Source: Candidatus Zixiibacteriota bacterium (GTDB taxonomy: Bacteria; Zixibacteria; MSB-5A5; GN15; FEB-12). From it: DNA of 52,045 nt. The stretch lies in assembly GCA_040756055.1 (NCBI GenBank), contig JBFLZR010000010.1:1-52045 (forward strand), in the 5' to 3' direction. Shown piece by piece: positions 390 through 14,411 of this stretch; the first letter of the stretch is position 1, and each line of letters begins with the position of its first letter. The translations under genes were made by a program, and so were the position numbers. The notes under the pieces are model-generated. The model had not been told where the DNA came from. It ran no database searches and saw nothing but the letters and a program-made list of their open reading frames with translations.

Positions 390-461
390 GAGTTGTCCGG
401 TCCGCTTTCGGTCACGGCCGGTGATACTCTGCCCGAAAAGTGTCCTGTCGGATTTTTTTAC

Positions 462-490
462 TTGACATAATATGGATAGTGTGGTATCCT
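462..490 (+). promoter_or_regulatory. Sigma-70 type promoter
   Basis: TTGACA at 462-467 is followed after 17 bases by TATCCT at 485-490 (perfect -35; 4 of 6 at -10). It lies about 220 bases before the ATG at 712 and would transcribe the DEHPWGD peptide gene and, by read-through, the overlapping regulator. The 390-711 stretch holds no gene that I can support. Confidence 0.6.
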
Positions 491-711
491 TTAGTCGACA
501 ATCGAAAGGAACAAAACACCGTTCGGGTGAGGGAGTGCTTTTGTCCGTCACTGATTCCCGACATTGATTTGCTGCTACCAGCTTAACTTGAGCCTGTTTC
601 TCGGGCTTTGTTAAGGTGTACATCTCGGGACATTCAGCATTTACTCATCACAATCAAACGGCTTTGGAGCCGCTTTCTTACCCGACCGAATTCAGTTGGA
701 GATATTGTGTT

Positions 712-1038
712 ATGAAGCAGTTTGTGAAAAGCGCTTTAGTCGCGCTAATGCTGGTGGCCCTCGGGGTTGCCGTTTTACCTCCAACCGCCACAGGTGAAGA
801 TACATTACCGTATACCAGAATTGAGCAGGATGCTGTGGATGTGAGTGATGAACATCCATGGGGCGATAATTCTAATCCCGGGTCGAGTCCGGGTGTCTAC
901 CGCATTACGATTCAAATTGCCTTATCAGTCTATGATGCGATTTACGGTGGACAGATCTCTAACGAGTCAAACGTAGCGGACATGCATAAGAAGAATAGGA
1001 TCAATGACGATACTCAAAACGTCACAACTTTTAGATAA
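712..1038 (+). CDS. Small exported protein with one DEHPWGD motif
   Basis: The product has 108 residues. The ATG at 712 is chosen because GGAG (698-701) precedes it by 10 bases and the product then begins with a clean Sec signal peptide (MKQF, a hydrophobic run 'ALVALMLVALGVAVLPP', a likely cleavage site near 'ATG-ED'). The mature part is acidic and carries 'SDEHPWGDNSNPG' near residues 53-65. The same motif is repeated in the protein at 8058, so the two form a local family. No known domain is recognised and the function is unknown. Its last 35 bases overlap the start of the regulator gene in another frame, which suggests translational coupling. The C-terminal third (after about residue 90) is low in hydrophobicity and may be poorly conserved. 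Confidence 0.6.
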   Translation: MKQFVKSALVALMLVALGVAVLPPTATGEDTLPYTRIEQDAVDVSDEHPWGDNSNPGSSPGVYRITIQIALSVYDAIYGGQISNESNVADMHKKNRINDDTQNVTTFR

Positions 1039-3166
1039 AGCCAGGCAGCATCTCCGAAACAGAGACCATAAGAAGGCTCTGGATGTTCTTCGTGAGATTG
1101 ATGCTGGATCGCTAGGCGACGCTCAACTGGGGCTGTATTACCTGGCGAGCGGCGAAGCTCTCATATTGGCTGGCGAGTGCGGACACGATTTTATCGAGAA
1201 GGCTATCGCTATACTGAAAGGTCTGGACGACAATTTTGCCTTTGCTCATGCCAAGTTTCTGAGGGGATGGCAACTTCAAGCGATAGGAGAGCCCCTGAAG
1301 GCGAAGGAACCGCTGATAGAGTCTTATACCGCGTTTCTCCGGATTGATAATTTCGACTCGGCTGCCAGAGCTTTGAACAGGCTGGCTATGATATCTTTTC
1401 ATATGGGGGATGTTGATCAGGCTTCAGAGAGTCTTTCCAAGAGCATTACGTATTATACAAAGGCAGGAAACGATAGGTTGAGCAACGTTGCCAAGGGTAA
1501 TCTGGCGCTCGTGCGTTTCTTGAGCGGCCAGGTGCAGGCAGCGAGGAGGAACTACGCGGAGATCGGAGAGCAGTTGTCGCTCCTCGATTTGAAAAATAGA
1601 TGTGTCTTCCTCCTAGGTTACGCGATGGCGATAGCTCTTTCGGGCGACGTGTCTGGCGCGAAGAAGAAACTGGCAGAAGCAGGGAAACTTGCCGCGGACT
1701 TCAGGAGAGAAGAGGCAAGCTACTACGAATACCTCGGATGGATAGAAATCCTCGATAAGAACTACAAGGCGGCCGAAAAGGCGCTTGAGACGGGATTGAA
1801 GCTCTCGCTCGAGATAGCCCCGGAGTCGGCGCTGGTGTCGCAGATAAAGAGACTTCTTGCGGATACATACGTAGCGACCGGCAAGTTCGATGAGGCTGAG
1901 AAAGTTGGCAGGGAAGCGCTGGCAGTCGCGGAAAAAATAAACGAGCGCGTAGAAATCGCCGCCGTGTATCGGGTGTTCGCGCAGGTTGAAGCGCACAGAA
2001 AATGCAGCGCCAAAGCTTGCGAGTGGTACCGTAAGGCTATCGATCTGTTCTCGATGGCGAGCTCCCGCTACGAGCTTGCGGTCACAAGATACCTGGCGGC
2101 ATCGAGCGGACTTCTTGAAAATGGTGAACGCACGGCAATGCTTTATCTGGCGCGTGAGTATTTCGTGTCGGAACAGCTTGACCACTGGATTAAGAAGGTC
2201 GATGAGGAAACATCGCGGGTGAGTCAGCCCGCTCCCGCCAAATCCGAGCGCGCAAATGAATCCGATAAGGAGTGCCCCACGATCATAACGGTCAACGACC
2301 GGATGAAAAAGATTCTGGCCATGGCCGAGCACGTGGCCCGGTGTGACATGACGGTGCTTCTTACGGGGCAAACAGGGACCGGCAAAGATTTGCTGGCAAA
2401 ATATATTCACCACCACAGTGGGCGTAGCGGCAAATTCGTGACTGTCAACGCCGCGGCTATCCCGACCTCGATGATTGAGTCGGAGTTGTTCGGTTACGCG
2501 AGGGGTGCATTCACCGGGGCCGACAAAGAAAAGCCGGGGCTTTTTGAGATGGCCGATGAGGGGACATTCTATCTGAACGAAGTGGCCGATTCTACACCGG
2601 AGTTTCAGGCCAAGCTTCTGGAGGTGCTTGAAACCCGCGAAGTGCGTCGTCTGGGTGAAAACAAAAAGCGCAAAGTGGCGTTCAGATTGATAGCGGCCAC
2701 GAACCATGATCTCGACGCGAGGATGCGTGAAGGCGCGTTTCGCCCGGATCTGTATCACCGGTTGAACGAAATTCCGATAAGCCTGCCTCCGCTTGACGAA
2801 CGGCGAGAGGATATCGCGCCGCTGGTGGAGTATTACCTCACCAATCTGGGACTAAAGGTTGGTTCCAGCGGGAGCGGCGATGCCATAAGGCGGTTGGTAG
2901 ACATTCTCTTAAAGCAGGATTGGCCCGGCAACGTGCGGGAGCTGATAGCTCAGGTACGGTATCTTCACATCACCGCCCAGGGGAATCTCGAGCGCATGAT
3001 TGATCTGGCGCTGGGAGATGGTAGCCGGTCGGAGATTGAGAAGCTGACACAGGTGCTGGAGATGACCGGTTGGAACCGCAGCCGGACAGCATCGATCCTC
3101 GGCGTGAGCGAGGGGACAATCCGCAACCGTCTTCGCAAGTACGGTCTATCGCGCGACGATTCGTAG
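1004..3166 (+). CDS. TPR-containing sigma-54-dependent transcriptional activator
   Basis: The product has 720 residues. Residues 1 to about 400 are helical TPR-like repeats (for example 'ADTYVATGKFDEAEKVGREALAVAE' in two stretches near 287-310). Residues 430-660 form a sigma-54 interaction AAA+ domain: Walker A GQTGTGKD (455-462), the sigma-54 contact loop GAFTGA (501-506), Walker B region GTFYLNEV (520-527), sensor I 'RLIAATN', and arginine-finger region FRPDLYHRL (579-587). The C-terminus is a Fis-type helix-turn-helix ('NRSRTASILGVSEGTIRNRL'). The usual Walker B Asp is Asn (N525, LNE instead of LDE), which may weaken Mg/ATP handling. The family is an enhancer-binding protein needed by sigma-54 RNA polymerase; here the sensor is a TPR region instead of a receiver or GAF domain. 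The ATG at 1004 has only a weak AGGA upstream and overlaps the previous gene by 35 bases. It probably controls the two modules at 3159 and 7362 (inferred). Confidence 0.88.
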   Translation: MTILKTSQLLDKARQHLRNRDHKKALDVLREIDAGSLGDAQLGLYYLASGEALILAGECGHDFIEKAIAILKGLDDNFAFAHAKFLRGWQLQAIGEPLKAKEPLIESYTAFLRIDNFDSAARALNRLAMISFHMGDVDQASESLSKSITYYTKAGNDRLSNVAKGNLALVRFLSGQVQAARRNYAEIGEQLSLLDLKNRCVFLLGYAMAIALSGDVSGAKKKLAEAGKLAADFRREEASYYEYLGWIEILDKNYKAAEKALETGLKLSLEIAPESALVSQIKRLLADTYVATGKFDEAEKVGREALAVAEKINERVEIAAVYRVFAQVEAHRKCSAKACEWYRKAIDLFSMASSRYELAVTRYLAASSGLLENGERTAMLYLAREYFVSEQLDHWIKKVDEETSRVSQPAPAKSERANESDKECPTIITVNDRMKKILAMAEHVARCDMTVLLTGQTGTGKDLLAKYIHHHSGRSGKFVTVNAAAIPTSMIESELFGYARGAFTGADKEKPGLFEMADEGTFYLNEVADSTPEFQAKLLEVLETREVRRLGENKKRKVAFRLIAATNHDLDARMREGAFRPDLYHRLNEIPISLPPLDERREDIAPLVEYYLTNLGLKVGSSGSGDAIRRLVDILLKQDWPGNVRELIAQVRYLHITAQGNLERMIDLALGDGSRSEIEKLTQVLEMTGWNRSRTASILGVSEGTIRNRLRKYGLSRDDS

Positions 3167-3297
3167 GGTTTAGCGCCCGATTCGTAATTTTTTCCATTCA
3201 ATTCGTAGAATTTTCAAGTGCATTCGCAGTTTTAGGTCAGTCTCGTTTTCTTATTCGTAAGCTAAGCGGGGTGATTCGTAAAATTTCGACATTCGCG
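3159..3297 (+). repeat. Helically phased ATTCGTA box array, copy 1 (candidate upstream activating sites)
   Basis: Direct repeats of ATTCGTA start at 3159, 3180, 3201, 3222 (ATTCGCA), 3253 and 3274, with a weaker ATTCGCG at 3291. Start-to-start spacings are 21, 21, 21, 31, 21 and 17 bp. 21 and 31 bp are two and three helical turns, so the main boxes lie on one face of the DNA. The first box overlaps the stop codon of the regulator gene. The last perfect box ends 108 bp before the sigma-54 type promoter. The second copy at 7362 has the same spacing order. It is probably a cooperative binding array for an activator, most simply the adjacent sigma-54 activator. Confidence 0.8.
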
Positions 3298-3388
3298 GTT
3301 TGCCGGCGTGCTTATTCAATCCACCTGCCAATTTACAACAGTCTTATTTGAAAGCACTTAGAGGTTTGTTGAGGTTTTCGCGTCTGAC

Positions 3389-3404
3389 CGGCACGTGTTT
3401 TGTG
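3389..3404 (+). promoter_or_regulatory. Sigma-54 type promoter, copy 1
   Basis: CGGCACG-TGTT-TTGTG at 3389-3404 matches the -24/-12 consensus TGGCACG-N4-TTGCA in GGCACG and TTG. The GG and the -12 GT are ten bases apart, as required; GT replaces GC. The predicted start of transcription is near 3415, giving a leader of about 250 bases before the ATG at 3664. The homologous site at 7612 has the same form. Confidence 0.72.
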
Positions 3405-3456
3405 GTGTGATTTTTCGAAGCGGATTTCTCATCCGTTCCTTTCGAGAGTGAGTCAT

Positions 3457-3528
3457 CCGGGTCGGGGCCGTCAGCCTTAAGACTGTTGGGATAGATGTTG
3501 ATGCGAACTGACAGTCGGTCCCGGCCGG
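3457..3528 (+). promoter_or_regulatory. Conserved GC-rich leader hairpin, copy 1
   Basis: The arm at 3457-3470 (CCGGGTCGGGGCCG) pairs with 3516-3528 (CGGTCCCGGCCGG) with one bulged base and two G-U pairs, and TCAG (3471-3474) can extend it with CTGA (3508-3511). It lies in the predicted sigma-54 transcript. The flanking sequence (cGGAtTTCTCAT, GTTCCTTT, GGTCGGG) recurs at 7646-7693 in the second module. It may be an RNA structure controlling mRNA stability or translation, or a small RNA. No run of T follows, so a plain terminator is unlikely. Confidence 0.55.
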
Positions 3529-3663
3529 GTGGCTGCTTGAACAAGCAGAGGGCAATCGGGGGACATACATTAATATAAAGGCGTGACCATCAACTTCGAT
3601 CCAGGCCTATATAGGGTACTGGAAAAACTGCAACCCATCAACTGCCATAGAAGGGAGGTGAGT

Positions 3664-3861
3664 ATGAAGGCAAAGAAAGTCATGGTGACTTTAATTCTGG
3701 TGTTTGCCCTATCCTTGGTTGGGACTGTCGCGACAGTTCAGGCCGGCCCTCCAGAGACAGTCACGTGGATCGGTGACTGCAACTGGAGTTTTTGTACAAC
3801 GGAAAACTGTGTCATACACACAGTACTTTCCTGCGCTGCCGGTTTTTTGCGGTATATGTAG
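3664..3861 (+). CDS. Small exported Cys-rich peptide (CX4CX4C family)
   Basis: The product has 65 residues and no recognised family. The ATG at 3664 follows a strong AGGGAGGTGA ribosome binding site. A Lys-rich Sec signal peptide ('MKAKKVMVTLILVFALSLVG') ends near 'VQA-GPP', leaving a mature peptide of about 38 residues containing 'IGDCNWSFCTTENCV', that is C-X4-C-X4-C, and a fourth Cys. The next gene at 4402 encodes the same pattern and shares the leader 'GCCATAGAAGGGAGGTGA', so the two are recent paralogues. The gene lies directly downstream of the sigma-54 type promoter and hairpin leader. Disulfide-bonded signalling or antimicrobial peptides are possible roles, but nothing here proves one. 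Confidence 0.6.
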   Translation: MKAKKVMVTLILVFALSLVGTVATVQAGPPETVTWIGDCNWSFCTTENCVIHTVLSCAAGFLRYM

Positions 3862-4113
3862 TCCGGGCTATTTAATAAAGAACCCTGAAAAATCTTGAAT
3901 ACTTGTGTTAGGCGCTTTGGCGCGGCGGAGGCCCCGGAAGGTTCCGCCAACGCAAGTTTTGAGCCTGTCATTTCTTTTCAAGTGGTGATTCTTTTGGCTT
4001 TTGCTACTGGTATTATCACTTCAGAATTTATTGACCTGGCAAGTACAGCGGTTTTTTAGATCTGGTTCTTTTGCCCCGACTGTTATCGCAGCAATCGGAG
4101 TTTTTTGTCCATC

Positions 4114-4173
4114 CCCACACCAATGCGTTTAATGAACCTTATCTTGTGAAAATTTCATGGTCATTGGTGTGGG
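4114..4173. repeat. Inverted repeat CCCACACCAATG, copy 1
   Basis: CCCACACCAATG (4114-4125) and its exact complement CATTGGTGTGGG (4162-4173) enclose a 36-base loop. A diverged version of the same arms lies at 6594-6660. It could be an operator, an RNA stem or a small non-autonomous element. Confidence 0.6.
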
Positions 4174-4290
4174 CTCGGTAAATTTAGCTAAATCTTAGCA
4201 TAACGATAAGGTAATTTGCTGGATTTGTGAGTTTATTTTCAGTAAAGAGGTGTAGTGACAGTACGTGATTAGTTGAGCAAATATGGCAAC

Positions 4291-4317
4291 TTGACAAGCC
4301 TCATATGCTGCTATATG
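4291..4317 (+). promoter_or_regulatory. Sigma-70 type promoter
   Basis: TTGACA at 4291-4296 is followed by TATATG at 4312-4317 (15-base spacer). An alternative -10, TATGCG at 4314, has a 17-base spacer. The site overlaps a small palindrome, ATATGC-N11-GCATAT. It is placed about 85 bases before the gene at 4402. Confidence 0.45.
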
Positions 4318-4401
4318 CGGCATATATCAACTAACTTCACCGCACCGTATTTATAACGGGGACAATCCTCAACCCCAAACCGCCATAGAAGGGAGGTGAA
4401 C

Positions 4402-4592
4402 ATGGAGGCGACAAAAGTAATCGCGACCTTGTTAGTCCATTGTGCTTTGGCTTTTACCTTGACCATATTGCCGGCCCGCCTGCGTCGTATACCTCGATCG
4501 GGTCATGGGACTGCGATTCTAGTTCGTGCAATACCGAGAACTGTGTGGTCTATGTACCTACTTCTTTTTGGTTCAAGGAGTTTTTCACCTAA
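4402..4592 (+). pseudogene. Frameshifted paralogue of the Cys-rich exported peptide
   Basis: The ATG at 4402 follows the same AGGGAGGTGA site as its neighbour at 3664 and encodes a matching signal peptide (MEATKVIATLLVHCALAF). In that frame the remainder is nonsense. Two bases later in frame, from about 4467 to the TAA at 4590-4592, the sequence reads 'AGPPASYTSIGSWDC' and then 'DSSSCNTENCV', matching the CX4CX4C, TENCV and AGPP pattern of the intact copy. A frameshift therefore lies inside the signal-peptide region, roughly 4440-4470. It could be a true inactivating mutation, an assembly error or a programmed shift; I see no clear slippery heptamer. The unshifted frame runs on to 4665 but is not supported as a product. 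Confidence 0.65.
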
Positions 4593-4714
4593 CGCGTTTT
4601 CCTATGGCTGTACAACGATCGGTATGAAACGAACTTCAGTGGTACTTTACGCTTTACACCAGTGAGCTCGTTTCATCAATCACAGTTGGAAAATCTATAA
4701 GGAGGCGATTTCAG

Positions 4715-5653
4715 ATGACGGATTTTCGTCGGGAGTCAAGCCGGCATCAGATGAAGCAGAACTACCAGCCGAATATGGCAAAAGGCTGGGGCGTAGTGTT
4801 CGTCTTGGTTGTGCTTTTCGCCATTTGGACGGCCAATTGGGAGCAGGGTGAAATAGTTCGCCTTGATGTGAAGCAGGCTGGTCTGCCGTCCGATATCCGC
4901 TTTGACCCTGAGAGGGTTGAGCGATCATCTGAAATGGCCGCTAAGCGGTCGATCGGCGGATACAATCCACGCGCCCATGAGCATGACGGTTTTCTCGGCT
5001 TTGACGTGAAAATAATCAAAGACGACCAACCTCTTAGGATTGACATCGAGAAGCCGCCGGTTTATTCCACTGAAATAGAAGACGAACTGTCAGTTGGAAG
5101 TGATATTTCATTCTCGGTTATAGAAGCAGAAGGCGGGGGGATTTATGTTCCCGAGGGAACTGATCTGCTGGCTGAACACGAGGAGCAAAGCCAGAAACCG
5201 GTTGTGAACAGCGACGCTTGCCTGATCCGAAGTGTCAAACCGGAGGTCCCCTGGATAGCCCAGGAGAACAAAAAGGAAGGCCGGGTCGACGTATTGGTCC
5301 TAATTGATAAAACCGGTCAACCAATCCCATATTCCTGTAAACAGGCGGACGGGGTAAGTACAACGCCGGAGTATATGTTGGATTGCCGGATGAAAGACGG
5401 TAGCGTGGCCACTCTCGAGTTCTGTGTTTCTCCGCAAAGCAGCGACAATAAACTCCTTTATGTCGTATTGCACGAGGAACCGAAAGGTTACTATTTTGCC
5501 GAAAAATTAACCGAGAAACTGCCGGATTGGAAGTTTGCTCCGGCCATTCGCAACAATGAACCGGTGGTGCAGTTCGTTATCGTGCAGTTCAGATTTTGCA
5601 ATCCCGATGACCCGGACTGCCAGTCAATTATTCTGGCCGGCGCCTCTACCTGA
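4715..5653 (+). CDS. TonB-like membrane-anchored protein
   Basis: The product has 312 residues. The ATG at 4715 has an AAGGAGG site nine bases upstream. It is a type II membrane protein: a short cytoplasmic N-terminus, one transmembrane helix (about residues 25-42, 'GWGVVFVLVVLFAIWTANW'), then a long periplasmic region. The C-terminal 130 residues resemble a TonB energy-transducer domain: 'VKPEVPWIAQENKKEGRVDV' followed by 'LVLIDKTGQPIPYS', and near the end 'PDWKFAPAIRNNEPVVQFVI', the usual W-x-F-x-PA-x-x-x-x-x-PV pattern. It differs from ordinary TonB by an insertion of about 60 residues between those halves and by lacking a proline-rich spacer. No exbB or exbD is nearby. It could act as a periplasmic envelope-spanning link for the small exported proteins, but that is inference. 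Confidence 0.62.
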   Translation: MTDFRRESSRHQMKQNYQPNMAKGWGVVFVLVVLFAIWTANWEQGEIVRLDVKQAGLPSDIRFDPERVERSSEMAAKRSIGGYNPRAHEHDGFLGFDVKIIKDDQPLRIDIEKPPVYSTEIEDELSVGSDISFSVIEAEGGGIYVPEGTDLLAEHEEQSQKPVVNSDACLIRSVKPEVPWIAQENKKEGRVDVLVLIDKTGQPIPYSCKQADGVSTTPEYMLDCRMKDGSVATLEFCVSPQSSDNKLLYVVLHEEPKGYYFAEKLTEKLPDWKFAPAIRNNEPVVQFVIVQFRFCNPDDPDCQSIILAGAST

Positions 5654-5700
5654 GGCCAGCTCTTTCCAAGTGTGACCGCGATTGTTAACGGTACACTGGG

Positions 5701-5728
5701 TTGACACTTTTTCACAACAAGCTATGCT
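5701..5728 (+). promoter_or_regulatory. Sigma-70 type promoter
   Basis: TTGACA at 5701-5706 is separated by 16 bases from TATGCT at 5723-5728. It lies about 50 bases before the TTG start at 5781. Confidence 0.5.
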
Positions 5729-5780
5729 GTTTTATTGGGAAAAGAGATGTGAATAGAGCCTTAAAATAGAGGAGGGAAAA

Positions 5781-6536
5781 TTGAAGAGAATTTTCTTTAT
5801 GCTGTTGCTGGCCTTGTTTTTGGTTGACAGCTTGGCTTATGCGCAGGATGTGGATTATGATCCCAATAATCCCAAAGCGTCAGATTCAGCCGGCATATTC
5901 GGCTATCAAAGCGGCAATTGTCCCCCGGTCAGGGCGCTTGATGGCCCTCTTCAGTTGGTGATAAACCACGATGGCCAGGAGCCGGTTATCAATTTGGTTC
6001 TCGATCCAAAACAGCGCTATCCCGTTTTCTTTGACGTCGGCAGAATATATTCCGATACTTTGCGGATTGAGGCATACTTACCTCCGGAAATCCCGAATAA
6101 ATTTCCGACGCCGCCTGAATTCCGACCGCCGGATGGAAATTTCACGCTACTGGTCGTTTATCGGTTATCTAATGATACAGCCGAGTACCGGGTATCTTTT
6201 TCAGGAGATCCACTCACGCTGAATGTGGAAACAGTTCGTCATGCTGAATTCCTGAGGCTTCAGAAATTGCGTCAGAAGCCGGAGAATATAGCACTGCTTA
6301 TTTTTAGCAGTTATGATCAGGCGATGGGTGCCAAGAAAAAGCTGAAAAAGTACGTTAAGTGTACCAGGCTGAAGCCGGGAAACTATGAAGGAATACCTTT
6401 CTTGATTGCCAAAGGCGAGCACGGGATGAATGAAGTTCCCTGCCGCTGTGTTATATTGGCGGTAATACTGCCGAAGGACGCCGAGAAGCGCCGGTTGGCC
6501 GAGGAGCAGTTAAGCCGATACCAGGTTATCGGCTGA
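5781..6536 (+). CDS. Exported protein of unknown function
   Basis: The product has 251 residues. It starts at TTG (5781), supported by a GGAGGG site four bases upstream and an immediate Sec signal peptide ('MKRIFFMLLLALFLVDSLAYA' by feature, cut near AYA-QD). I recognise no domain. The mature protein is rich in Pro and Asn near the N-terminus and has alternating hydrophobic stretches suggesting beta structure. The last 90 residues are mixed alpha/beta with a Lys-rich segment ('AMGAKKKLKKYVKC') and four Cys in total. It has its own promoter and sits between the TonB-like protein and a small membrane protein, so it may belong to the same exported-peptide locus. Confidence 0.6.
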   Translation: MKRIFFMLLLALFLVDSLAYAQDVDYDPNNPKASDSAGIFGYQSGNCPPVRALDGPLQLVINHDGQEPVINLVLDPKQRYPVFFDVGRIYSDTLRIEAYLPPEIPNKFPTPPEFRPPDGNFTLLVVYRLSNDTAEYRVSFSGDPLTLNVETVRHAEFLRLQKLRQKPENIALLIFSSYDQAMGAKKKLKKYVKCTRLKPGNYEGIPFLIAKGEHGMNEVPCRCVILAVILPKDAEKRRLAEEQLSRYQVIG

Positions 6537-6593
6537 CAGACCTCTTTCGCCACCAGACCAGACTCTCTGTATGGAAGTCGGTTCTACTATACC

Positions 6594-6693
6594 GCCCCCA
6601 CACCAATTGCTTTTGCAGTAGAACGAGTAATGAACATTTTGCCGGATTGGTGAGGGGGGCTTGACAAATTACTCTGCCAGGATAAGGCAGAGT
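6594..6693. repeat. Inverted repeat GCCCCCACACCAAT, copy 2, plus TTGACA/palindrome
   Basis: GCCCCCACACCAAT (6594-6607) faces ATTGGTGAGGGGGGC (6646-6660), an imperfect version of the repeat at 4114. TTGACA (6661-6666) follows at once, then an 8-bp palindrome ACTCTGCC-N7-GGCAGAGT (6671-6693) that could be an operator or hairpin. No good -10 is visible after this TTGACA. All of it lies just before the gene at 6745. Confidence 0.45.
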
Positions 6694-6744
6694 ATTAGAA
6701 ATAATGAAAGATATTACACCTTTGAATAAAGGGTAGGAGGGGAA

Positions 6745-7167
6745 ATGGCTAAATTTAGAGTACTAGCCTTTTTGATGGCGTCATCGGGCAACTTCGCTGG
6801 TACGATAATTTCTGCATTATTGTTTTTATCACTTGGCAACGAAGATCCGGATGGCATTGACACACCTTTTGGGGTGGTTATTGCCATATCGTCAGCAATT
6901 GCAATCTGGATACTGATAGCGAACTGGAAGACCCGGCTTAAGCTGATTCATCTATTTCTTTTTGCGGGCCTCTTGGCTCCCATCAGCTATCGTTTTTTGG
7001 TGGCGGGGAATACCTTTTTTACGATATTAGAGATAGTTCACGGACAATGGATGCCTTATCCGGAAAATCTTTTCTACAATCTAGTTTTGAGCGTGCTGGT
7101 CAACGGTACAATGATCATGGCGTTAGCTGTATTAAATGAGCCGGACAATCAAATTGAAAAAAGTTGA
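6745..7167 (+). CDS. Small polytopic membrane protein of unknown function
   Basis: The product has 140 residues; the ATG at 6745 follows GGAGGGG closely. Four predicted transmembrane segments lie at about residues 5-32, 41-62, 67-85 and 114-132, with a short loop 'GNEDPDGIDTP' between the first two. No family is recognised. Codon use and the strong ribosome binding site support a real gene. It is separated from the preceding secreted-protein gene by 208 bases holding the inverted repeat. Confidence 0.6.
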   Translation: MAKFRVLAFLMASSGNFAGTIISALLFLSLGNEDPDGIDTPFGVVIAISSAIAIWILIANWKTRLKLIHLFLFAGLLAPISYRFLVAGNTFFTILEIVHGQWMPYPENLFYNLVLSVLVNGTMIMALAVLNEPDNQIEKS

Positions 7168-7361
7168 CGACAAAACTATAACCGCTTTCATATGCTTAAA
7201 GCGACCTTCCTAAATTTCATTACACCAATGCTGGCAGGAAGGTGAGTCCCCGCCGTCGGGTGAATTCCTTGGACCGAACAAGATATTCCTCGTCAACGAC
7301 GAAGAGGGCGGTCCGTCAAGGCCTCTTTGTAGAGGCTCGCTAGTTACTGCCAGCCTGGGCA

Positions 7362-7504
7362 ATTCGTGGCGATATTCGAGTTATTCGTACAGTTAGGCGC
7401 AAAACTCGTAAGTCATTCAATCCAATTCGTAAAAAAATGAAGCCTGGTCGCAGGTTTTCGGAAGATACCAGCCCGGATTCGTAACGATAGGGCCGAAATT
7501 CGTA
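7362..7504 (+). repeat. Helically phased ATTCGTA box array, copy 2
   Basis: Boxes start at 7362 (ATTCGTG), 7383, 7404 (ACTCGTA), 7425, 7456 (degenerate TTTCGGA), 7477 and 7498, giving spacings of 21, 21, 21, 31, 21 and 21 bp. An extra off-phase ATTCGAG lies at 7374. The spacing order, including the single 31-bp step after the fourth box, repeats that of the array at 3159. The last box ends 107 bp before the sigma-54 type promoter, against 108 bp in copy 1. The bases between boxes are not conserved, so selection appears to act on the boxes and their phase. Confidence 0.82.
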
Positions 7505-7611
7505 AAACCGGGTGATCGGGCTGATGGCAAAGACAAGGCCTGATTCCGTGCGGCCGCGCAATTATCTCGTAGATAACTACTTAACATTGAAATTTAGATT
7601 GAGGCGACGGC

Positions 7612-7627
7612 TGGCACGGGGTTTGTA
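7612..7627 (+). promoter_or_regulatory. Sigma-54 type promoter, copy 2
   Basis: TGGCACG-GGGT-TTGTA at 7612-7627 matches the consensus TGGCACG-N4-TTGCA at every fixed base except C to T in the -12 GC. The predicted start is near 7638, giving a leader of about 420 bases before the ATG at 8058. A second register (GG at 7618-7619, GC at 7630-7631 in TTGCA) is possible, but its -24 element is poorer. Confidence 0.78.
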
Positions 7628-7681
7628 TTGCACTATTTTTGAGAACGGACTTCTCATTTAGTTCCTTTTGTTGAGTAGGTC

Positions 7682-7754
7682 GTCCTGGTCGGGTCCGGCC
7701 TTGCGGAGGGCAGTGGGACAGTGGAAAATGTAACATCGGGCCCGACCGGGGGAC
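7682..7754 (+). promoter_or_regulatory. Conserved GC-rich leader hairpin, copy 2
   Basis: The arm GTCCTGGTCGGGTCC (7682-7696) pairs with GGGCCCGACCGGGGGAC (7738-7754) through a GGTCGGG core with G-U pairs and a small bulge. The upstream GGACTTCTCAT...GTTCCTTTTGTTGAGT (7647-7676) aligns with 3422-3452 in copy 1. The arms differ in sequence between copies yet still pair, which favours a selected RNA structure. Confidence 0.55.
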
Positions 7755-8057
7755 TAAAAAAGTTCGGCTTAAGCAGCAGTTACTTCGGAAATACTTAGCG
7801 TCGATGGTAAATATCACAGATAGAGATGTCGCAAGCCTGGCTTTCGGCATGCCCGTGCAGTTAACGTGGGTTGTGTTGGCTGGGAAACGTTTTGTCAAGG
7901 TTCGGGCAGACAGAAACCGGGGCAGCGATTTTCTCTGTTGATGGTGAGGGGATGTCCGATTGGAGGCGGCGGGTGGCTTACTTGTAGCTGGTGACCACCT
8001 GCCGCTTCTTAGAGGACATTCTTTAAGAGCAATCTTTTGAGAGGAGGTTTTGAGGAG

Positions 8058-8426
8058 ATGGAAGACATCAGGAGGAAACGAACGACGGGCGCGGTCTTGT
8101 TGCTGCTGACAGTATTGCTTTGCGCGGCATTTATGACACCTTCGGTTGCAGCAGGTCCGCCGAATCAGTTGGAGTCCCGGATTGTCGCGGATGACCACCC
8201 GTGGGGAGACGAGCATCCGTGGGTCGACGCCCTGGCAGCATCGGATGATCACCCGTGGAATGACGGAAAGCCAACGATTGATGATCATCCGTGGGGAGAG
8301 GGTAAGCCGAAATCTGATGATACTCCTTGGGGTGATCGCGGGCCGAAAAACGACAATGATTCCGGAGACCTCGGAGCCATTGGCGAGATATTTTTCTACC
8401 TCAACTTGTGGATGGTAAATTTCTAA
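8058..8426 (+). CDS. Exported DDHPWGD-repeat protein
   Basis: The product has 122 residues. The ATG at 8058 is preferred over an upstream TTG at 8037 because GAGGAGG (8041-8047) lies between them. A signal peptide ('TTGAVLLLLTVLLCAAFM') ends near 'SVAA-GPP', echoing the AGPP after the signal of the peptide at 3664. Five near-repeats follow: DDHPWGD (45-51), DEHPWVD (51-57), DDHPWND (63-69), DDHPWGE (75-81) and DDTPWGD (87-93), with 'GKP' linkers. The tail 'GEIFFYLNLWMVNF' is hydrophobic. The protein at 712 has one such motif. Asp/His-rich repeats could bind metal; no known family is recognised. It lies directly downstream of the second sigma-54 module. Confidence 0.68.
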   Translation: MEDIRRKRTTGAVLLLLTVLLCAAFMTPSVAAGPPNQLESRIVADDHPWGDEHPWVDALAASDDHPWNDGKPTIDDHPWGEGKPKSDDTPWGDRGPKNDNDSGDLGAIGEIFFYLNLWMVNF

Positions 8427-8455
8427 TTGGCAACATTATCTGTTGAGGAGGCCGC

Positions 8456-8692
8456 TTGAAGACCCTTCTGATTCTCAACATCGTATTCGTGTTTGCAGGT
8501 ATCGTTTTGCTGGCGATGGCGTATCGGGAGCGCAACAAAGACAACGCGCCGTTCAGTTTTAAGCTGTCCGCTTTTCGCGGTATCCGCAACCGGTTTACCC
8601 AAACCGGTCACCGGTATTATCTGGCCGGTGTTTTATTCGTATCGCTCGGATGCCTGTCGTCTTCTATCTACTGGCTTTCAAGATCAGATTAA
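8456..8692 (+). CDS. Small two-helix membrane protein
   Basis: The product has 78 residues. It starts at TTG (8456) after GAGGAGG (8445-8451). Two transmembrane helices (about 2-20 and 55-74) flank a basic cytoplasmic or periplasmic segment ('RNRFTQTGHRYY'). It is 29 bases after the DDHPWGD-repeat gene and is probably cotranscribed with it. No family is recognised. Confidence 0.5.
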   Translation: MKTLLILNIVFVFAGIVLLAMAYRERNKDNAPFSFKLSAFRGIRNRFTQTGHRYYLAGVLFVSLGCLSSSIYWLSRSD

Positions 8693-8840
8693 ACCAGGGA
8701 GGCCGGGCAGTCTTGGTCCAAGCGCTGTCCGGCCGATTCTTTGGGCATGTTGATAAAGTCCTCGTGTCTGGTTGAGGCAGGTCCTGTAAATCCGTGTAGC
8801 GAATTTATGTGACCTGGCGCTTGTGCCGCTCTTGGACTTA

Positions 8841-9030
8841 TGTGTCAGGTCACAATTTCTGCAAGCAGAAATCAAGACCTGACACAACGGCGTAAAGGTT
8901 ATTCAACAAGCCTCTGTGGCCGGACCTATCTTGAAATTACGTCACAATTTCAGCAAGCAGAAATCAAGACCTGACACAACGGCGTAAAGGTTATTCAGCA
9001 AGCCTCTGTGGCCGGACCTACCTTAAAATT
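8841..9030. repeat. 92-bp tandem duplication containing a GTGTCAGGTC palindrome
   Basis: Bases 8849-8938 recur at 8941-9030 (period 92) with few differences. The first copy begins within a nested palindrome: outer arms TGTGTCAGGTC (8841-8851) and GACCTGACACA (8876-8886), inner arms ATTTCTGC and GCAGAAAT. The second copy keeps the inner and right arms but has lost the left outer arm. The outer arms recur at 28932 and 28998. The stretch 8693-9048 holds no gene. A REP- or MITE-like element is the likeliest explanation. Confidence 0.7.
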
Positions 9031-9048
9031 TTGCCAAAAACAAGCTCG

Positions 9049-9076
9049 TTGACAAACAGGGGGAACATCGTATATT
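9049..9076 (+). promoter_or_regulatory. Sigma-70 type promoter
   Basis: TTGACA (9049-9054), a 16-base spacer, TATATT (9071-9076). It is placed 55 bases before the ATG at 9131. Confidence 0.6.
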
Positions 9077-9130
9077 TCGTCGATTTTGTCCGCTTAAGTT
9101 AAAAAGCGAAAGGTCGTCGAAAACAGCGGT

Positions 9131-9532
9131 ATGTCATTTTTGTCAACCTCGCGCAATCGCCTTGTTCTGGTCCTCTGGCTGGTTGGTATACATTCGATCG
9201 TTGTCGGATTCGGTCTGATCTTCCTGCCGCCGTCGTATGTACCGTTTTTCGGCTTCGCACCGTTTGCCGAAAAATTCTTTCCGGTGCAGGGGGGAGTATT
9301 TCATCTGGTTATGGCGGTAGCCTATATTATGGCGGCGGTAAGGCCGGAGCGTTATCCCGGGCTGATAATTCTCTCTTTTGTAGCCAAGCTGATGGCGGCC
9401 GCGTTTCTGCTCACATACTATATTCTAATAGATCGAATCTGGATGGTGCTTTTTTCGGGAGTCGGCGATGCCCTGATGGGGCTGGTGATATACCTTTTGT
9501 ATCGCGCCTTCAACCGCGAAACCGCGTCATAG
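9131..9532 (+). CDS. Four-helix membrane protein of unknown function
   Basis: The product has 133 residues. Four predicted transmembrane helices lie at about residues 10-30, 52-70, 76-97 and 100-125. A conserved-looking loop 'LPPSYVPFFGFAPFAEKFFP' precedes the second helix. No family is assigned. It has its own good promoter and is followed by 91 bases before the methyltransferase gene. The start at 9131 lacks a clear ribosome binding site, but the helix begins correctly from it. Confidence 0.55.
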   Translation: MSFLSTSRNRLVLVLWLVGIHSIVVGFGLIFLPPSYVPFFGFAPFAEKFFPVQGGVFHLVMAVAYIMAAVRPERYPGLIILSFVAKLMAAAFLLTYYILIDRIWMVLFSGVGDALMGLVIYLLYRAFNRETAS

Positions 9533-9623
9533 AATCACCGTATACAATAGTCATCGACGGCGAAAATAACGGGCAATTTTGTCCGAAGATTGAATTTCAA
9601 CTTTGTTTGAAGGGGAGCGAAGT

Positions 9624-10214
9624 ATGTTTCACAAGATACCGCAGGCGATAGCCGAGCGGATGATGTTTCTGGAAGAGCTCGACAGGCGCGATCGTCTGGA
9701 TGGCACCAGTCGCAAGGTGCGGCTTCGGCAAATCCCGCCGGATACCGGGAAGTTCATAGCGTTGCTCGCGTCCGAGGCGCCCGATGGCGCCCTGGTGGAG
9801 ATCGGCACGAGCGCCGGGTATTCTACTCTCTGGTTAGCTCTGGCGTGTCTTGAGACTGACCGTAAGATTGTCACGATTGAGATCGATGATGATAAGTTCC
9901 GGATGGCAACAGAGACTTTCCGTCTCACCGGCCTTGGCGGCACAGTTGAGCAGGTTCACCGCGACGCCCGGGAGGTGCTGGACGGATTTACGGATATAGC
10001 GTTTTGTTTTCTCGATGCCGAAAAGGAGATTTACGATAGCTGTTATGAGCTGGTGGTGCCGAGGATGGTACCGGGAGGTATCCTTGTTGCCGACAATGTT
10101 ATCAGTCACCGGGAGATTCTCCAGCCGTTTTTGGACAGGGTGGAGGCTGATGAGCGGGTGGATTCGGTGGTGGTGCCGATCGGCAAAGGGGAACTTCTCT
10201 GCCGCAAGCGGTAG
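9624..10214 (+). CDS. SAM-dependent O-methyltransferase, class I
   Basis: The product has 196 residues, close to the roughly 200-220 usual for the catechol/caffeoyl-CoA O-methyltransferase family (Methyltransf_3 or _24). The SAM-binding motif I is '[18 protein letters not shown]' (residues about 53-70). The acidic end of strand 2 is '[11 protein letters not shown]', motif II is '[14 protein letters not shown]' with the metal-ligand type Asp, and '[12 protein letters not shown]' supplies the DN pair. The ATG at 9624 follows AAGGGGAG. The methyl acceptor cannot be told from sequence; bacterial members act on small catechols or other hydroxylated compounds. It stands alone between a membrane protein gene and rsgA. 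Confidence 0.85.
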
Positions 10215-10236
10215 CCGGCAGGTGACACGATAAATG

Positions 10237-10264
10237 TTGACAGGCCTTTTTTATTTGATATAAT
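10237..10264 (+). promoter_or_regulatory. Consensus sigma-70 promoter upstream of rsgA
   Basis: TTGACA (10237-10242), a 16-base spacer and a perfect TATAAT (10259-10264). It is the strongest vegetative promoter seen in the window. It drives the short ORF at 10320 and, past two hairpins, rsgA. Confidence 0.75.
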
Positions 10265-10319
10265 AGGGGTGACTTTTAACCAGGGTCCGCGGATGGCGGA
10301 TGGAAAGGAGGCGTATTTT

Positions 10320-10376
10320 ATGACAGCGGTAGTTGAAAGAGTAGTTGTAAAGTTACGCCCGGGAGGCGGTCGGTAA
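10320..10376 (+). CDS. 18-residue leader peptide ORF upstream of rsgA
   Basis: The ORF encodes MTAVVERVVVKLRPGGGR and has an AAAGGAGG site (10304-10311) eight bases before the ATG. It lies 55 bases after a consensus promoter and is followed within 40 bases by two GC-rich hairpins before the rsgA ATG. That layout is typical of leader peptides used for attenuation, but there is no run of one amino acid's codons; the end is 'RPGGGR'. It may instead be a stalling peptide or part of a small RNA. Confidence 0.5.
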   Translation: MTAVVERVVVKLRPGGGR

Positions 10377-10410
10377 ACGACTTTCAGGACCATAGTCCAA
10401 TTTATTGATA

Positions 10411-10444
10411 ACCGCGGGTGTAGCTTTGGTCCGCGGTATTTTTG
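10411..10444 (+). terminator. Terminator-like hairpin 1 before rsgA
   Basis: ACCGCGG (10411-10417) pairs with CCGCGGT (10431-10437), followed by ATTTTTG. It would end the leader transcript upstream of rsgA or act as an attenuator. Confidence 0.6.
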
Positions 10445-10459
10445 TATCTGGTAAACGGT

Positions 10460-10495
10460 GAGCCGCGGAATTTAATCTTGCGGCTCTTTACTTTT
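10460..10495 (+). terminator. Terminator-like hairpin 2 before rsgA
   Basis: GAGCCGC (10460-10466) pairs with GCGGCTC (10480-10486), followed by TTTACTTTT. It is 30 bases before the rsgA ATG and could also mask its ribosome binding region. Confidence 0.55.
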
Positions 10496-10515
10496 ATAAA
10501 GGAAATTGACAAGCG

Positions 10516-11646
10516 ATGAGTAACGATAATTCGAATACATCGATGATTTCACTTGGGTGGGATCAGCATTTCGAGAAACATTTTGAACCATACAGCCCCG
10601 ACGGGCTCGTGCCGGGAAGAGTGGAAGCGGAACATCGCAATCTATACCGGGTGGTGTGCGAGTGCGGGCATTTCAGCGCCGAGGTATCCGGGCGGTTCAT
10701 AAACAGCGCCGTATCGCGGGGTGACTATCCGGCGGTCGGTGACTGGGTGGTGATGAACCTTCTGGAGAAGGAACAAAAGGGTATCATTCAGGCGGTGCTT
10801 GAGCGCAAGAGTTGTTTTTCGCGCAAGGCGGTGTTATCGGGAGGTATGCCCGATACGGGTGGCAAGACAGCCGAGCAGGTGTTGGCGGCGAATATCGACA
10901 CGGTCTTTCTCGTCAGCGGTTTGGACAATAATTTCAATATCCGTCGTATCGAACGCTATGTGACGGTTGCCTACAACAGCGGGGCGACCCCGGTTATCAT
11001 ATTGAACAAAGCGGATCTCCGCGATGATCTCGATGAGTGCGTGAGCGAGGTTCAGGAGATTGCGGCCGGTGTGGATGTTTTAGCTGTCAGCGCAGCTTCA
11101 CACGCGGGCCTGGATGCGCTTCAGAGATATCTTGCGGTGGGAAAGACCGTGGCGTTTCTGGGGTCATCGGGAGTGGGCAAATCCACGATTATCAACACGC
11201 TGCTTGGTGAGCAAAGGCTCAAGACCAGGGAGGTTAGTGGTGAGGACAGCCGGGGCAGGCACACGACCACGCATCGTGAGCTGATTGTTCTCCCCGGCGG
11301 CGGGGTGGTGATTGATACACCGGGAATGCGCGAGATCAGCCTGTGGGATGATACCGGCGGTCTTCAGAAGGCTTTCGATGATATCGAGGCGTTTGCCCGC
11401 CAGTGCCGGTTTCATGACTGCACACACGAGAGCGAACCGGGTTGCGCCGTGCAGGCGGCGCTTGCCGATGGACGGCTCGATGCGGCGAGGTTTGGCAATT
11501 ACGTGAAACTTCAAAAAGAGATCAGCGCCTTCGCCATCAGGAAAGACAAACAACTGTACCGGCAGACGACAAGGGAACGGGACAAGAAGCATCGCCGGTA
11601 TTTTAAAGAGATGCAGAAGGTGAACAAGAAGTTTCGCGAGAGGTGA
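10516..11646 (+). CDS. rsgA: Ribosome small-subunit-dependent GTPase A
   Basis: The product has 376 residues, slightly longer than the usual 300-350. RsgA (YjeQ) binds the 30S subunit late in assembly and hydrolyses GTP. The GTPase is circularly permuted, as in the family. An N-terminal OB fold (about 30-105) is followed by the G4 motif NKAD (164-167), then the P-loop GSSGVGKST (216-224), switch region 'GRHTTTHREL', and G3 DTPG (267-270). The zinc site C297-X4-C302-X-H304-X5-C310 is complete. The C-terminal 50 residues are Lys/Arg-rich and probably bind rRNA. The next gene follows after 26 bases. Expression appears to pass through a leader ORF and two hairpins. Confidence 0.95.
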   Translation: MSNDNSNTSMISLGWDQHFEKHFEPYSPDGLVPGRVEAEHRNLYRVVCECGHFSAEVSGRFINSAVSRGDYPAVGDWVVMNLLEKEQKGIIQAVLERKSCFSRKAVLSGGMPDTGGKTAEQVLAANIDTVFLVSGLDNNFNIRRIERYVTVAYNSGATPVIILNKADLRDDLDECVSEVQEIAAGVDVLAVSAASHAGLDALQRYLAVGKTVAFLGSSGVGKSTIINTLLGEQRLKTREVSGEDSRGRHTTTHRELIVLPGGGVVIDTPGMREISLWDDTGGLQKAFDDIEAFARQCRFHDCTHESEPGCAVQAALADGRLDAARFGNYVKLQKEISAFAIRKDKQLYRQTTRERDKKHRRYFKEMQKVNKKFRER

Positions 11647-11672
11647 GCTCATTCGCGTTTGGAGAGAGAATA

Positions 11673-12689
11673 ATGGATCAACAGACAGAGAGAATATTTG
11701 CCGACAACGAGCAGAAGGTGCTTTCTGAGGCAAGTAAACGATATGGTATGGCGCCGGACAGCCTGAAACGATTGGGTTCGTTTGAGAGTTTCGTGTTTGA
11801 GTATCGCTATCAAGACACAGACCAGATTCTGCGGGTCACCCCCGGTTCGCACCGCCAGGCGACTGCGATCAAGGGAGAACTGGAATGGGTCAACTATCTT
11901 GCCGACAACGGTGTTTCCGTTTGCCGGGGACTGCCATCGAAAAACGGTTCGTTGGTCGAGGTGATCGAACTGGACACGATCGATTCCGACCCGGATGCTT
12001 TTTACAGCGTGGTGAGTTTTACTAAGGCTCCGGGAAGGCGGGCGATCAAAGAGGACTGGAACGAGAAGCTGTTCACCAACTGGGGGCAGGTCATCGGCAG
12101 GATGCACGCCCTGACCAAAAACTACCAACCATCGGATCCATCACTTGTGCGCCACGTTTGGCACGAGGACGGTGACTTGCGAGCCGACAGGTATCTGCCG
12201 GAGTCTCAGACAAAAGTCCTGGCCAGGCACGCCGATCTGATGGATTATCTTCACAAGCTGCCGATGGATACGGATTCGTTCGGGCTGGTTCACGAGGACA
12301 TGCATCACGGCAATTTCTTCGTCGATAACGGCAGTATCACGGTTTTCGATTTCGACGATTGTCAGCATCACTGGTTTGCCTCGGATCTGGCGATGCCTTT
12401 GTTTTATGTCATGCGCAACCTGACTCTCAACGACCAGTCGCTGGAATTCGCCCATCACTTTTTCGGTTGTCTTATGGAGGGTTACTCCCGCGAGAACAGG
12501 ATAGAGAAGTACTGGCTGGAGCAGATCCCGCATTTTCTGAAACTGCGGGAGATGATTCTTTATATCATTCTCTATGCCGAAGAGGCGTTTGAAGCCAACG
12601 AATGGTGTCGGGCGTTCTTTAGTGGCAGAAGGGAGAGAATCGAAAACGGTGTTCCGGTACTCGATATGGATTTCGGACAGTTTGCTTAG
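11673..12689 (+). CDS. APH-family (aminoglycoside/homoserine kinase-like) phosphotransferase
   Basis: The product has 338 residues. It has the APH protein-kinase-like fold: catalytic loop 'LVHEDMHHGNFF' with D209 and N214, then the metal-binding 'VFDFDDCQ' (D226, D228). The N-lobe has the expected 'FVFEYRYQDTDQILRVTP' strand pair. Relatives include homoserine kinase type II, SrkA-like stress kinases and choline kinases; the substrate cannot be chosen from sequence. The ATG at 11673 follows GGAGAGAG, so it is preferred to a GTG overlapping the rsgA stop. It is 26 bases after rsgA and is probably cotranscribed. Confidence 0.82.
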   Translation: MDQQTERIFADNEQKVLSEASKRYGMAPDSLKRLGSFESFVFEYRYQDTDQILRVTPGSHRQATAIKGELEWVNYLADNGVSVCRGLPSKNGSLVEVIELDTIDSDPDAFYSVVSFTKAPGRRAIKEDWNEKLFTNWGQVIGRMHALTKNYQPSDPSLVRHVWHEDGDLRADRYLPESQTKVLARHADLMDYLHKLPMDTDSFGLVHEDMHHGNFFVDNGSITVFDFDDCQHHWFASDLAMPLFYVMRNLTLNDQSLEFAHHFFGCLMEGYSRENRIEKYWLEQIPHFLKLREMILYIILYAEEAFEANEWCRAFFSGRRERIENGVPVLDMDFGQFA

Positions 12690-12956
12690 TCCGTAGTATC
12701 TGTCGGGCACGCCGCTCGCCAAAACAGTTTGCTTTCACTCAGGTGGGACCGTACTTTTTTAGGCAGGCAATCTCTGCTGTCTGATTCGGCTAAAGCTAAA
12801 TTGAGTCAGGGCCGATACAGTATATATTGGATAACCGGGCCCGTTTTTTCCAAGATTTATTTCTCTGCCGGCCCAATTCACTGTATAGACATTGGGAAAT
12901 AGCCATATAAGCGGGCCGCATGAGGTCAGATCGTGCCGGCTGGAGGGAGAAAAGCC

Positions 12957-14411
12957 ATGATCAAAACTTCTATCATCACAATAAGCTCTGTCATTCTTTT
13001 GACTACCGCGTCGGTCTGGGCGGTGTCATTTGAGATAGGGGAGAGTTATTCCGCCGGACAGGAGCCTTTCTGGTTGAGCAAGGCTGACTTTAATAGTGAC
13101 GGGCATTTGGACTTGGCAGTCGGCCATTGTGATGAGCACCTCTATCCGGAGATAGACGCCAACAGCGGGATATCGGTTTTCTTCGGCAATGGCGACGGAA
13201 CGTTTGCTGAGGCGGTTCAATACGTTACAGGTTTCGGAACGTTAGCTATTTGTGCTGGTGATTTCGACGGTGATGGCGATATCGATCTTGCCTCAACACG
13301 ACCGGATAGGATCGGCTTCGTGGAGCCGGACTCGCTTTGCATATTGCTGAACGACGGCGAGGGAGTCTTTGAGCTTTCCCCAAGGTGCGAGACAGCGGTG
13401 GTAGGTTGCCTGGGTATGTGTGCTGTTGATGTGGACGGTGATAGCTCGGATGATTTGGTAATGACCGGTTATATGAACGACACTCTTTGTATCATGAAAA
13501 ACGGCGGTACCGGCAGTTTCGCTCTCGACACATGTTTCGCAGCAGGAGACTATGTGACTCGGGTATGCGCGGGTGATTTTGACTCCGACGGAGACGATGA
13601 CTTGGCCCTGGTAAACTTCGATAATCTTCTGATATACACCAACGACGGATTTGGAGACTTCACTTTTGCCGATGGATACAGTAATTCTGATCAAACCGAT
13701 ATTCTTGTGTCGGATTTCGACAGGGACGGGGACGGCGATCTGATGACAGTTTCACAGGCCACGGATTTAGTGACTGTCCGGCTGAATAGCGGTGATGCAA
13801 CATTTCCATTCACGGCTTATATTCCAGTTCCATTTATGCCATTCTCGGGAGCCCTGGCAGATTTTGACGGCGACGGCAATGAGGATCTGGCTTTAACGTG
13901 TCATGTTTGGGACAGTGTTTCAATTCTGCTTGGGACCGGCGACGGGGCGTTTGTGATGGATTCAAAATATTCGATCGCTGACAGACCAATTTCTCTGGAG
14001 GCCGGTGACTACGATGAAGATGGTGACTATGATTTGGTTGTAGTAAACAATTACTCCAACGAAATTACAATCATGCTGAATACGACCGTGGTAACAGATG
14101 TGACCGAGGAGGATAAGGTTGCAGAGGTGCCGTCGAGCTTTGGACTGCGTCAGAATTATCCCAACCCGTTCAATTCATCGACGAACATCCAATTCGATTT
14201 GTCGCAGCGGGCATTTGTGGAGATGACGATTTACAATATCGCAGGTCAGGTCGTGCGCTATCTTGTGACTGAAGAGATGTCAGCCGGGGTTCACACGGTT
14301 GAATGGAACGGTTCAAGCGACGCCGGCGTGCCGGTGGCGACGGGGATTTACCTCTGTCACCTGAAGGCGGGTGACTTTGTATCGATGAAGAAGATGGCGC
14401 TCTTGAAATAG
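12957..14411 (+). CDS. Secreted FG-GAP/VCBS-repeat protein with FlgD-like sorting tail
   Basis: The product has 484 residues. The ATG at 12957 follows GGAGGGAG; a signal peptide ('ITISSVILLTTASVWA') is present. Seven FG-GAP/VCBS repeats each carry a calcium-loop motif, for example DFNSDGHLDLA, DFDGDGDIDLA, DFDSDGDDDLA, DFDRDGDGDLM, DFDGDGNEDLA and DYDEDGDYDLV. They should form a seven-bladed beta propeller. The C-terminus ('LRQNYPNPFNSSTNIQFDL', 'GIYLCHLKAGDF', final MKKMALLK) is the FlgD-like Ig/type IX-style tail common in FCB-group secreted proteins. Such proteins are cell-surface or released, with unknown ligands. The 12690-12956 gap before it shows no gene. Confidence 0.85.
   Translation: MIKTSIITISSVILLTTASVWAVSFEIGESYSAGQEPFWLSKADFNSDGHLDLAVGHCDEHLYPEIDANSGISVFFGNGDGTFAEAVQYVTGFGTLAICAGDFDGDGDIDLASTRPDRIGFVEPDSLCILLNDGEGVFELSPRCETAVVGCLGMCAVDVDGDSSDDLVMTGYMNDTLCIMKNGGTGSFALDTCFAAGDYVTRVCAGDFDSDGDDDLALVNFDNLLIYTNDGFGDFTFADGYSNSDQTDILVSDFDRDGDGDLMTVSQATDLVTVRLNSGDATFPFTAYIPVPFMPFSGALADFDGDGNEDLALTCHVWDSVSILLGTGDGAFVMDSKYSIADRPISLEAGDYDEDGDYDLVVVNNYSNEITIMLNTTVVTDVTEEDKVAEVPSSFGLRQNYPNPFNSSTNIQFDLSQRAFVEMTIYNIAGQVVRYLVTEEMSAGVHTVEWNGSSDAGVPVATGIYLCHLKAGDFVSMKKMALLK

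Follow-up and report, generated by a model that had tools for sequence, protein, structure and literature searches.

Sigma-54 activators bind, in the textbook mode, as dimers to dyads, and the enhancer sites of NorR are dyads. Textbook sigma-54 promoters carry TTGC as the -12 element. At norVW, three NorR enhancer sites are needed as a scaffold for the oligomer (PMC2941729). Nla28, a sigma-54 enhancer-binding protein of Myxococcus xanthus, is proposed to use tandem 8-bp half-sites CT[C/G]CG[C/G]AG in the same orientation upstream of sigma-54 promoters, in clusters of 3–5 with spacers that average about 25 bp (PMC9765219). The RRNPP receptors, which serve in peptide quorum sensing, are proteins of Firmicutes or their mobile elements with 250–500 amino acids (aa), and their propeptides have 10–100 aa (PMC10075063). 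Here we describe two arrays of ATTCGTA-type half-sites, A1 and A2, in a 52,045-nucleotide stretch from Candidatus Zixiibacteriota bacterium (assembly GCA_040756055.1, contig JBFLZR010000010.1, positions 1 to 52,045), below called the window, together with the regulator gene at 1004–3166 whose product may bind them.

We are confident, short of certainty, that these phased arrays are a scaffold for this regulator, which combines a tetratricopeptide repeat (TPR) domain with a sigma-54 activator module and would drive the promoters behind A1 and A2. Computation gives the arrays, their helical phase, the positions and distance of the promoters, recurrence in related genomes, covariation between box sequence and recognition helix, and sister-family dyads. 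Most likely, the neighbouring regulator uses the arrays to turn on genes whose products are small secreted proteins and enzymes of peptide maturation.

Arrays A1 and A2

The A2 boxes read ATTCGTG (7362), ATTCGTA (7383), ACTCGTA (7404), ATTCGTA (7425), TTTCGGA (7456, 5/7), ATTCGTA (7477) and ATTCGTA (7498), with steps of 21, 21, 21, 31, 21 and 21 bp. An earlier note, made from the letters of the window, had placed seven boxes at these coordinates and called the one at 7456 degenerate, and both statements are borne out. A1 has six boxes, the seventh position of the model being without a box, and its first box overlaps the stop codon of the regulator gene. The full spacing model scores 45/49 in A2 and 42/49 in A1, while 30 Markov shuffles of the window give at most 28. 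Since the spacers of A1 and A2 are identical at 27/94 positions (29%) and the boxes at 38/49 (78%), A2 is not a recent copy of A1, in agreement with the note.

The note had also suggested that the phase is retained between arrays with dissimilar spacers, and this holds: box positions over ten arrays, including those from related genomes described below, follow a 10.35-bp period (mean resultant 0.95). The same spacing order, which the note saw in A1 and A2, is however not a fixed pattern. Near-uniform 21-bp spacing is seen in the related genomes G030, G033, G037 and G027, and a one-turn offset in the window, G026 and G038. Counted upstream from the promoter, the boxes lie at 231, 210, 189, 168 and, after the step, 137, 116 bp in A1, and at 250, 229, 208, 187 and, after the step, 156, 135, 114 bp in A2, so that the steps fall at different distances; G026 occupies both the 168 and 157 bp positions, that is, it has boxes one turn apart around the step. 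Hence each of the two arrays consists of a distal and a proximal sub-array set off from each other by one turn at the 31-bp step, which A1 and A2 have in different places. The constants are the helical face and the promoter-proximal distance, about 115 bp (114–116) from the last box to the -24 element in both arrays. As a weak box lies 21 bp after the one at 7425, the step in A2 may be 21 + 10, which is suggestive only.

A promoter of the form YGGCAY-N5-NTGT is found behind 11/13 arrays, commonly 114–117 or 126–127 bp from the last box. Helical phasing is seen, too, in the distance between the first box and the promoter (R 0.68, p about 0.002, the arrays being partly dependent). Between array and promoter, no common spacer motif rises above chance, and IHF-like matches are seen in G026 alone.

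Arrays in related genomes

In the 3.3-Mb genome of the window, exact matches to ATTCGTA-N14-ATTCGTA are confined to A1 and A2, and a genome-wide search with up to 2 mismatches found no third ATTCGTA array, the other matches looking like background. The further copies expected in the earlier note are thus absent from the genome itself and present in its relatives. Besides A1 and A2, there are twelve arrays in seven related genomes, with the architecture kept and the boxes different. De novo search around the regulators yielded phased arrays in G027, G030 (two), G033, G037 and G038, with scores of 34–46, where the control reached at most 20. The ATTCGTA pair search contributed four in G026 and another in G038, and the promoter-anchored scan added a degenerate array in G029b. 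The first array finder (8-mers with at most one mismatch) missed degenerate arrays and dyads, some of which were recovered by the promoter-anchored scan. Over 132 genomes of the phylum, the ATTCGTA pair pattern forms clusters in four, all of them array-bearing, and has one stray match; the reversed control pattern has zero matches in those four.

The boxes are of four types: ATTCGTAA in the window, G026, G030 and G038; ATGCGTAC in G027 and G029b; TGCGWCGC in G033; and TTCGGCGC in G037. The array lies between the regulator and the next promoter in G027, G037 and G029b.

As putative targets we list the genes after array promoters, in operons of presumed extent. The earlier note expected small secreted proteins; these do follow the arrays in the window (3664 and 8058), G026, G027 and G033, and other genes follow arrays as well. 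In G026, the array promoter of contig C98 precedes a peptide similar to the Cys peptide at 3664, and that of C114 a Fib_succ_major-domain protein. The G027 and G033 targets are secreted lipoprotein-like proteins. In G038 the target is a relative of radical-SAM maturases of ribosomally synthesised and post-translationally modified peptides (RiPPs); in G037 it is a relative of daptide-type intramembrane metalloproteases, accompanied by a GG-leader-like open reading frame (ORF) of 45 aa. Both matches are below the curated cut-offs.

The regulator

The regulator is a predicted sigma-54 enhancer-binding protein by its Sigma54_activat AAA+ domain with GAFTGA (PF00158, E 1.9e-60), and has a Fis-type C-terminal helix-turn-helix (HTH; PF02954, E 4.5e-9, residues 678–713). 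The genome has one sigma-54 gene (rpoN; PF04552, E 7e-58), and -24/-12 promoters lie downstream of both arrays (3389, 7612). The N-terminal domain matches PF13424 and other TPR families. Among PDB entries, its profile best matches TPR proteins of a generic kind (Pins/LGN, kinesin light chain), and a Rap-type chain is matched with E 2.8e-5. No curated NCBIfam equivalog for the regulator reaches its cut-off.

Members of the regulator family, at about 40–55% identity, occur in 33/132 genomes of the phylum, all from one order. The array-bearing regulators form no single clade, and the tree needs three changes. There is also a paralogous TPR-sigma54 clade (L063, located in the same genome as the window at C4:5173-7311, L065, L066 and L068) without arrays and without the secreted motif protein considered below. 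By eye, the genes downstream of its members are flavin adenine dinucleotide-, glyoxalase- and coenzyme A-binding-like.

Recognition helix and half-sites

Across 18 regulator/site pairs, the bases that follow CG vary with one residue of the recognition helix, the one after the invariant Arg. Lys in this position goes with CGTAC in 4/4 pairs against 0/14 of the others (p 0.0003), and Arg with bases other than TA/CA in 3/3 against 0/15 (p 0.001), both values being optimistic because the table was built after inspection, the relatives are not independent and some of the dyads are weak. With Asn, Tyr or Ser, the bases are TA or CA.

Half-sites similar to the boxes form palindromes behind orthologous regulators in families f2 and f4, and within f1 in G046 and G047. 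The G066 dyad, CTCGTAAATTACGAG, occurs twice, 31 bp apart, and in G074 TGCGTA-N3-TACGCA dyads stand in pairs about 32 bp apart. Further dyads are ATTCGTAAATTTACGAAT in G054, AATTCGCATCTGCGAATT in G058, AAACTCGCAGTACTGCGAGTTT in G078 and CTGCGTACCGGTACGCAG in G047. Taken one by one, the dyads have shuffle p-values between <0.005 and about 0.1, so it is their repeated occurrence in the same position that carries weight. The recurrence of dyads behind orthologous genes suggests that the box is a half-site of the TPR-sigma54 regulator family.

Proposed mechanism and alternatives

In the mechanism that we propose from these sequence features, each box would be a single half-site for the Fis-type HTH of the regulator. 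The subunits would line up, one per box, along six or seven half-sites that point the same way, share a helical face and mostly lie two turns apart, and would there form the AAA+ ring. By looping of the DNA over about 115 bp the ring would meet RNA polymerase-sigma54 at the YGGCAC-N5-TTGT promoter, which ATP hydrolysis would open. The TPR domain may serve as the sensor. A1 would then drive the peptide gene at 3664 and possibly also the TonB_C-like gene, and A2 the repeat-motif secreted protein at 8058.

A number of points speak against this mechanism. One subunit per box departs from the textbook dimer on a dyad, and the number of boxes varies from 5 to 9. Binding of the boxes by the regulator and activation of transcription would follow indirectly, from covariation, with its optimistic p-values, and from dyads, some of them only weakly significant. 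In G033, G038 and G030 the arrays are divergent from the regulator and not behind it, and the G038 promoters match the consensus poorly. In G026, none of the four arrays shares a contig with either of the two regulators found, so that the link between them rests on similarity of box and helix. Finally, the -12 element of the array promoters is TTGT, not the textbook TTGC; TTGT is present in 10/13 of them (L054, L057, L070, L210–L213 and the window among these). As a separate observation, several promoter-like sites near a second regulator subfamily (L007, L042–L044) read TTGC.

The same regulator may instead bind as conventional dimers, each gripping two neighbouring boxes, as proposed for Nla28, so that six boxes would hold three dimers and the array would be an ordinary multi-site enhancer. 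We regard this as a serious possibility, somewhat short of an even one. Arrays of six boxes are common; the imperfect tandem repeats of Nla28, in clusters of 3 to 5, have been proposed to be dimer half-sites (PMC9765219), and for NorR three enhancer sites provide the scaffold of the oligomer (PMC2941729). However, neither odd counts (5 and 7 boxes) nor the regular 21-bp spacing, in which boxes are not paired, points specifically to dimers.

The phased boxes could mainly bend the DNA, or be a site for a nucleoid protein or another repressor in place of the adjacent regulator, as might be expected from the AT-rich boxes, the A-runs that follow them in G026 and the helical period; but the GC-rich boxes TGCGWCGC and TTCGGCGC are phased as well, although they contain no A-tracts, and the covariation with the adjacent regulator's helix and the sister-family dyads point to that regulator, which makes bending or a foreign protein very unlikely. 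Direct repeats two turns apart also resemble iterons, or the partition-site repeats of a replicon. That origin is hardly conceivable for arrays that recur at conserved distances upstream of promoters, and no replication or partition protein is found among the ten ORFs scanned, 54 to 9532. Chance or recent local duplication, which the mere 4.2 kb between A1 and A2 might bring to mind, is just as negligible, given scores of 45/49 and 42/49 where shuffles reach at most 28, a spacer identity of 29%, and recurrence of the arrays in other genera with zero control matches in those genomes.

Promoters, leaders and genes of the window

The coordinates of the features are listed in Table 1.

Table 1. 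Features of the window around arrays A1 and A2
Feature	Position	Strand	Description
Small secreted protein	712..1038	+	DEHPWGD motif; overlaps regulator start
Putative array-binding regulator	1004..3166	+	720 aa; TPR (about 1–400), sigma-54 AAA+ (427–592, GAFTGA), Fis HTH (678–713)
Array A1	3159..3280	+	six half-sites: 3159, 3180, 3201, 3222 (ATTCGCA), 3253, 3274
Sigma-54-type promoter behind A1	3389..3403	+	CGGCAC-GTGTT-TTGT; consensus match
Predicted structured leader RNA, A1 transcript	3414..3545	+	small 5' hairpin and long hairpin; -54.7 kcal/mol, z -3.0
Secreted Cys peptide, predicted A1 target	3664..3861	+	CNWSFCTTENCVIHTVLSC; by eye like G026_C98 peptide CDLSRCGTETCLILMIVVC
Second Cys-peptide copy, frameshifted	4402..4665	+	no array of its own; homologous reading DCDSSSCNTENCVVYVP out of frame with start
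Membrane protein	4715..5653	+	weak TonB_C similarity (below cut-off); relatives behind two G026 arrays (33% and 25% identity)
Array A2	7362..7504	+	seven ATTCGTA-type half-sites: 7362, 7383, 7404, 7425, 7456 (degenerate), 7477, 7498
Possible degenerate extra half-site	7446..7452	+	GGTCGCA (4/7); 21 bp after fourth A2 box
Sigma-54-type promoter behind A2	7612..7626	+	TGGCAC-GGGGT-TTGT; consensus match
Predicted structured leader RNA, A2 transcript	7636..7755	+	long GC-rich hairpin; -50.6 kcal/mol, z -3.2
Small secreted protein, predicted A2 target	8058..8426	+	five D/E-x-PW-x-D/E repeats: DDHPWGD, EHPWVD, DDHPWND, DDHPWGE, DDTPWGD
Small two-helix membrane protein	8456..8692	+	similar protein behind G046 regulator-linked promoter (by eye)

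The predicted A1 and A2 leaders resemble each other. Leaders after array promoters fold into a small 5' hairpin followed by a second one that is longer, variable in sequence and for the most part GC-rich, and the fold z-scores of twelve leaders range from +1.4 to -5.4, 9/12 being at -1.4 or below. A conserved leader structure is suggested from separate folds only, the MAFFT alignments of the leaders being poor. No Rfam family was found in positions 1–13000 of the window, and the leaders are not in Rfam.

The protein at 8058–8426 matches no Pfam or NCBIfam family. The second Cys-peptide gene, at 4402–4665, has the same ribosome-binding region as the first and a frame break between the start and the Cys part; it appears to be broken or mis-assembled. 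Downstream of the A2 unit, there are two near-identical tandem stretches (cacaatttc..gcaagcagaaatcaagacctgacacaacggcgtaaaggttattca..), at about 8851–8930 and 8943–9022. The contig starts inside a CHAT-domain protease gene, 54–389 (PF12770, E 4.9e-31).

Secreted motif proteins beside the regulators

Small secreted proteins that share the acidic-W motif of the one at 712–1038 directly precede most orthologous regulators, their genes often overlapping the regulator's start. Next to 32/40 regulators there is a small ORF whose start resembles a signal peptide, and 25 of these 32 ORFs contain a motif of the acidic-x-[PGS]W-x-acidic type, against 4.9 expected from shuffles, the motif having been chosen after inspection. 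A signalling role for the motif-bearing protein is speculative. By analogy with peptide receptors, the D/E-x-PW-x-D/E protein might be processed to a signal sensed by the TPR domain, whereupon the activator would assemble on the phased half-sites and drive secreted effectors; such peptide signalling outside the Firmicutes seems to us rather unlikely. If true, the five-motif A2 target would constitute an amplifying loop. As a general target of the arrays, a motif-repeat protein was considered and rejected, since only A2 among thirteen arrays drives a multi-copy motif protein.

Comparison with known systems

With the NtrC/NifA-type activators (PF00158 and PF02954) the regulator shares the AAA+ domain with GAFTGA, the Fis HTH and upstream enhancers, and the sites of its sister families are classical dyads; it differs in the N-terminal TPR domain. 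A TPR-containing cytoplasmic regulator beside a small secreted protein is also the arrangement of the RRNPP systems. However, a 720-aa regulator with a sigma-54 AAA+ engine, from another phylum, falls outside the RRNPP receptors in size, subfamily and Firmicutes origin, and many of the adjacent ORFs exceed the 10–100 aa of RRNPP propeptides.

Ring assembly of a sigma-54 AAA+ activator on a scaffold of several enhancer sites, probable here, is described for NorR. NorR has three sites and a GAF sensor, whereas the present regulator has a TPR domain and would use six or seven single half-sites. The DNA layout proposed for Nla28 is similar, with half-sites of 7–8 bp in one orientation clustered upstream of a sigma-54 promoter, and a CG core in both cases. 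The accessible part of the Nla28 report describes no helical phasing, whereas here 5–9 boxes lie on one helical face at a set promoter distance across genera.

Closely related activators apparently use one kind of half-site in two geometries, palindromic dyads in some lineages and long same-orientation arrays on one face of the helix in others. The series of dyads and arrays is suited to asking how the sigma-54 ring assembles, whether the hexamer is nucleated one subunit at a time, and how operator geometry switches. The covariation of helix and box offers a small readable code, and the arrays flag secreted-peptide and RiPP-enzyme genes in an uncultured phylum. Tandem half-sites are already known from Nla28 and multi-site scaffolds from NorR; new are the strict helical phasing of 5–9 single half-sites, which persists between genera with different boxes, and the alternation of dyad and tandem sites between close relatives.
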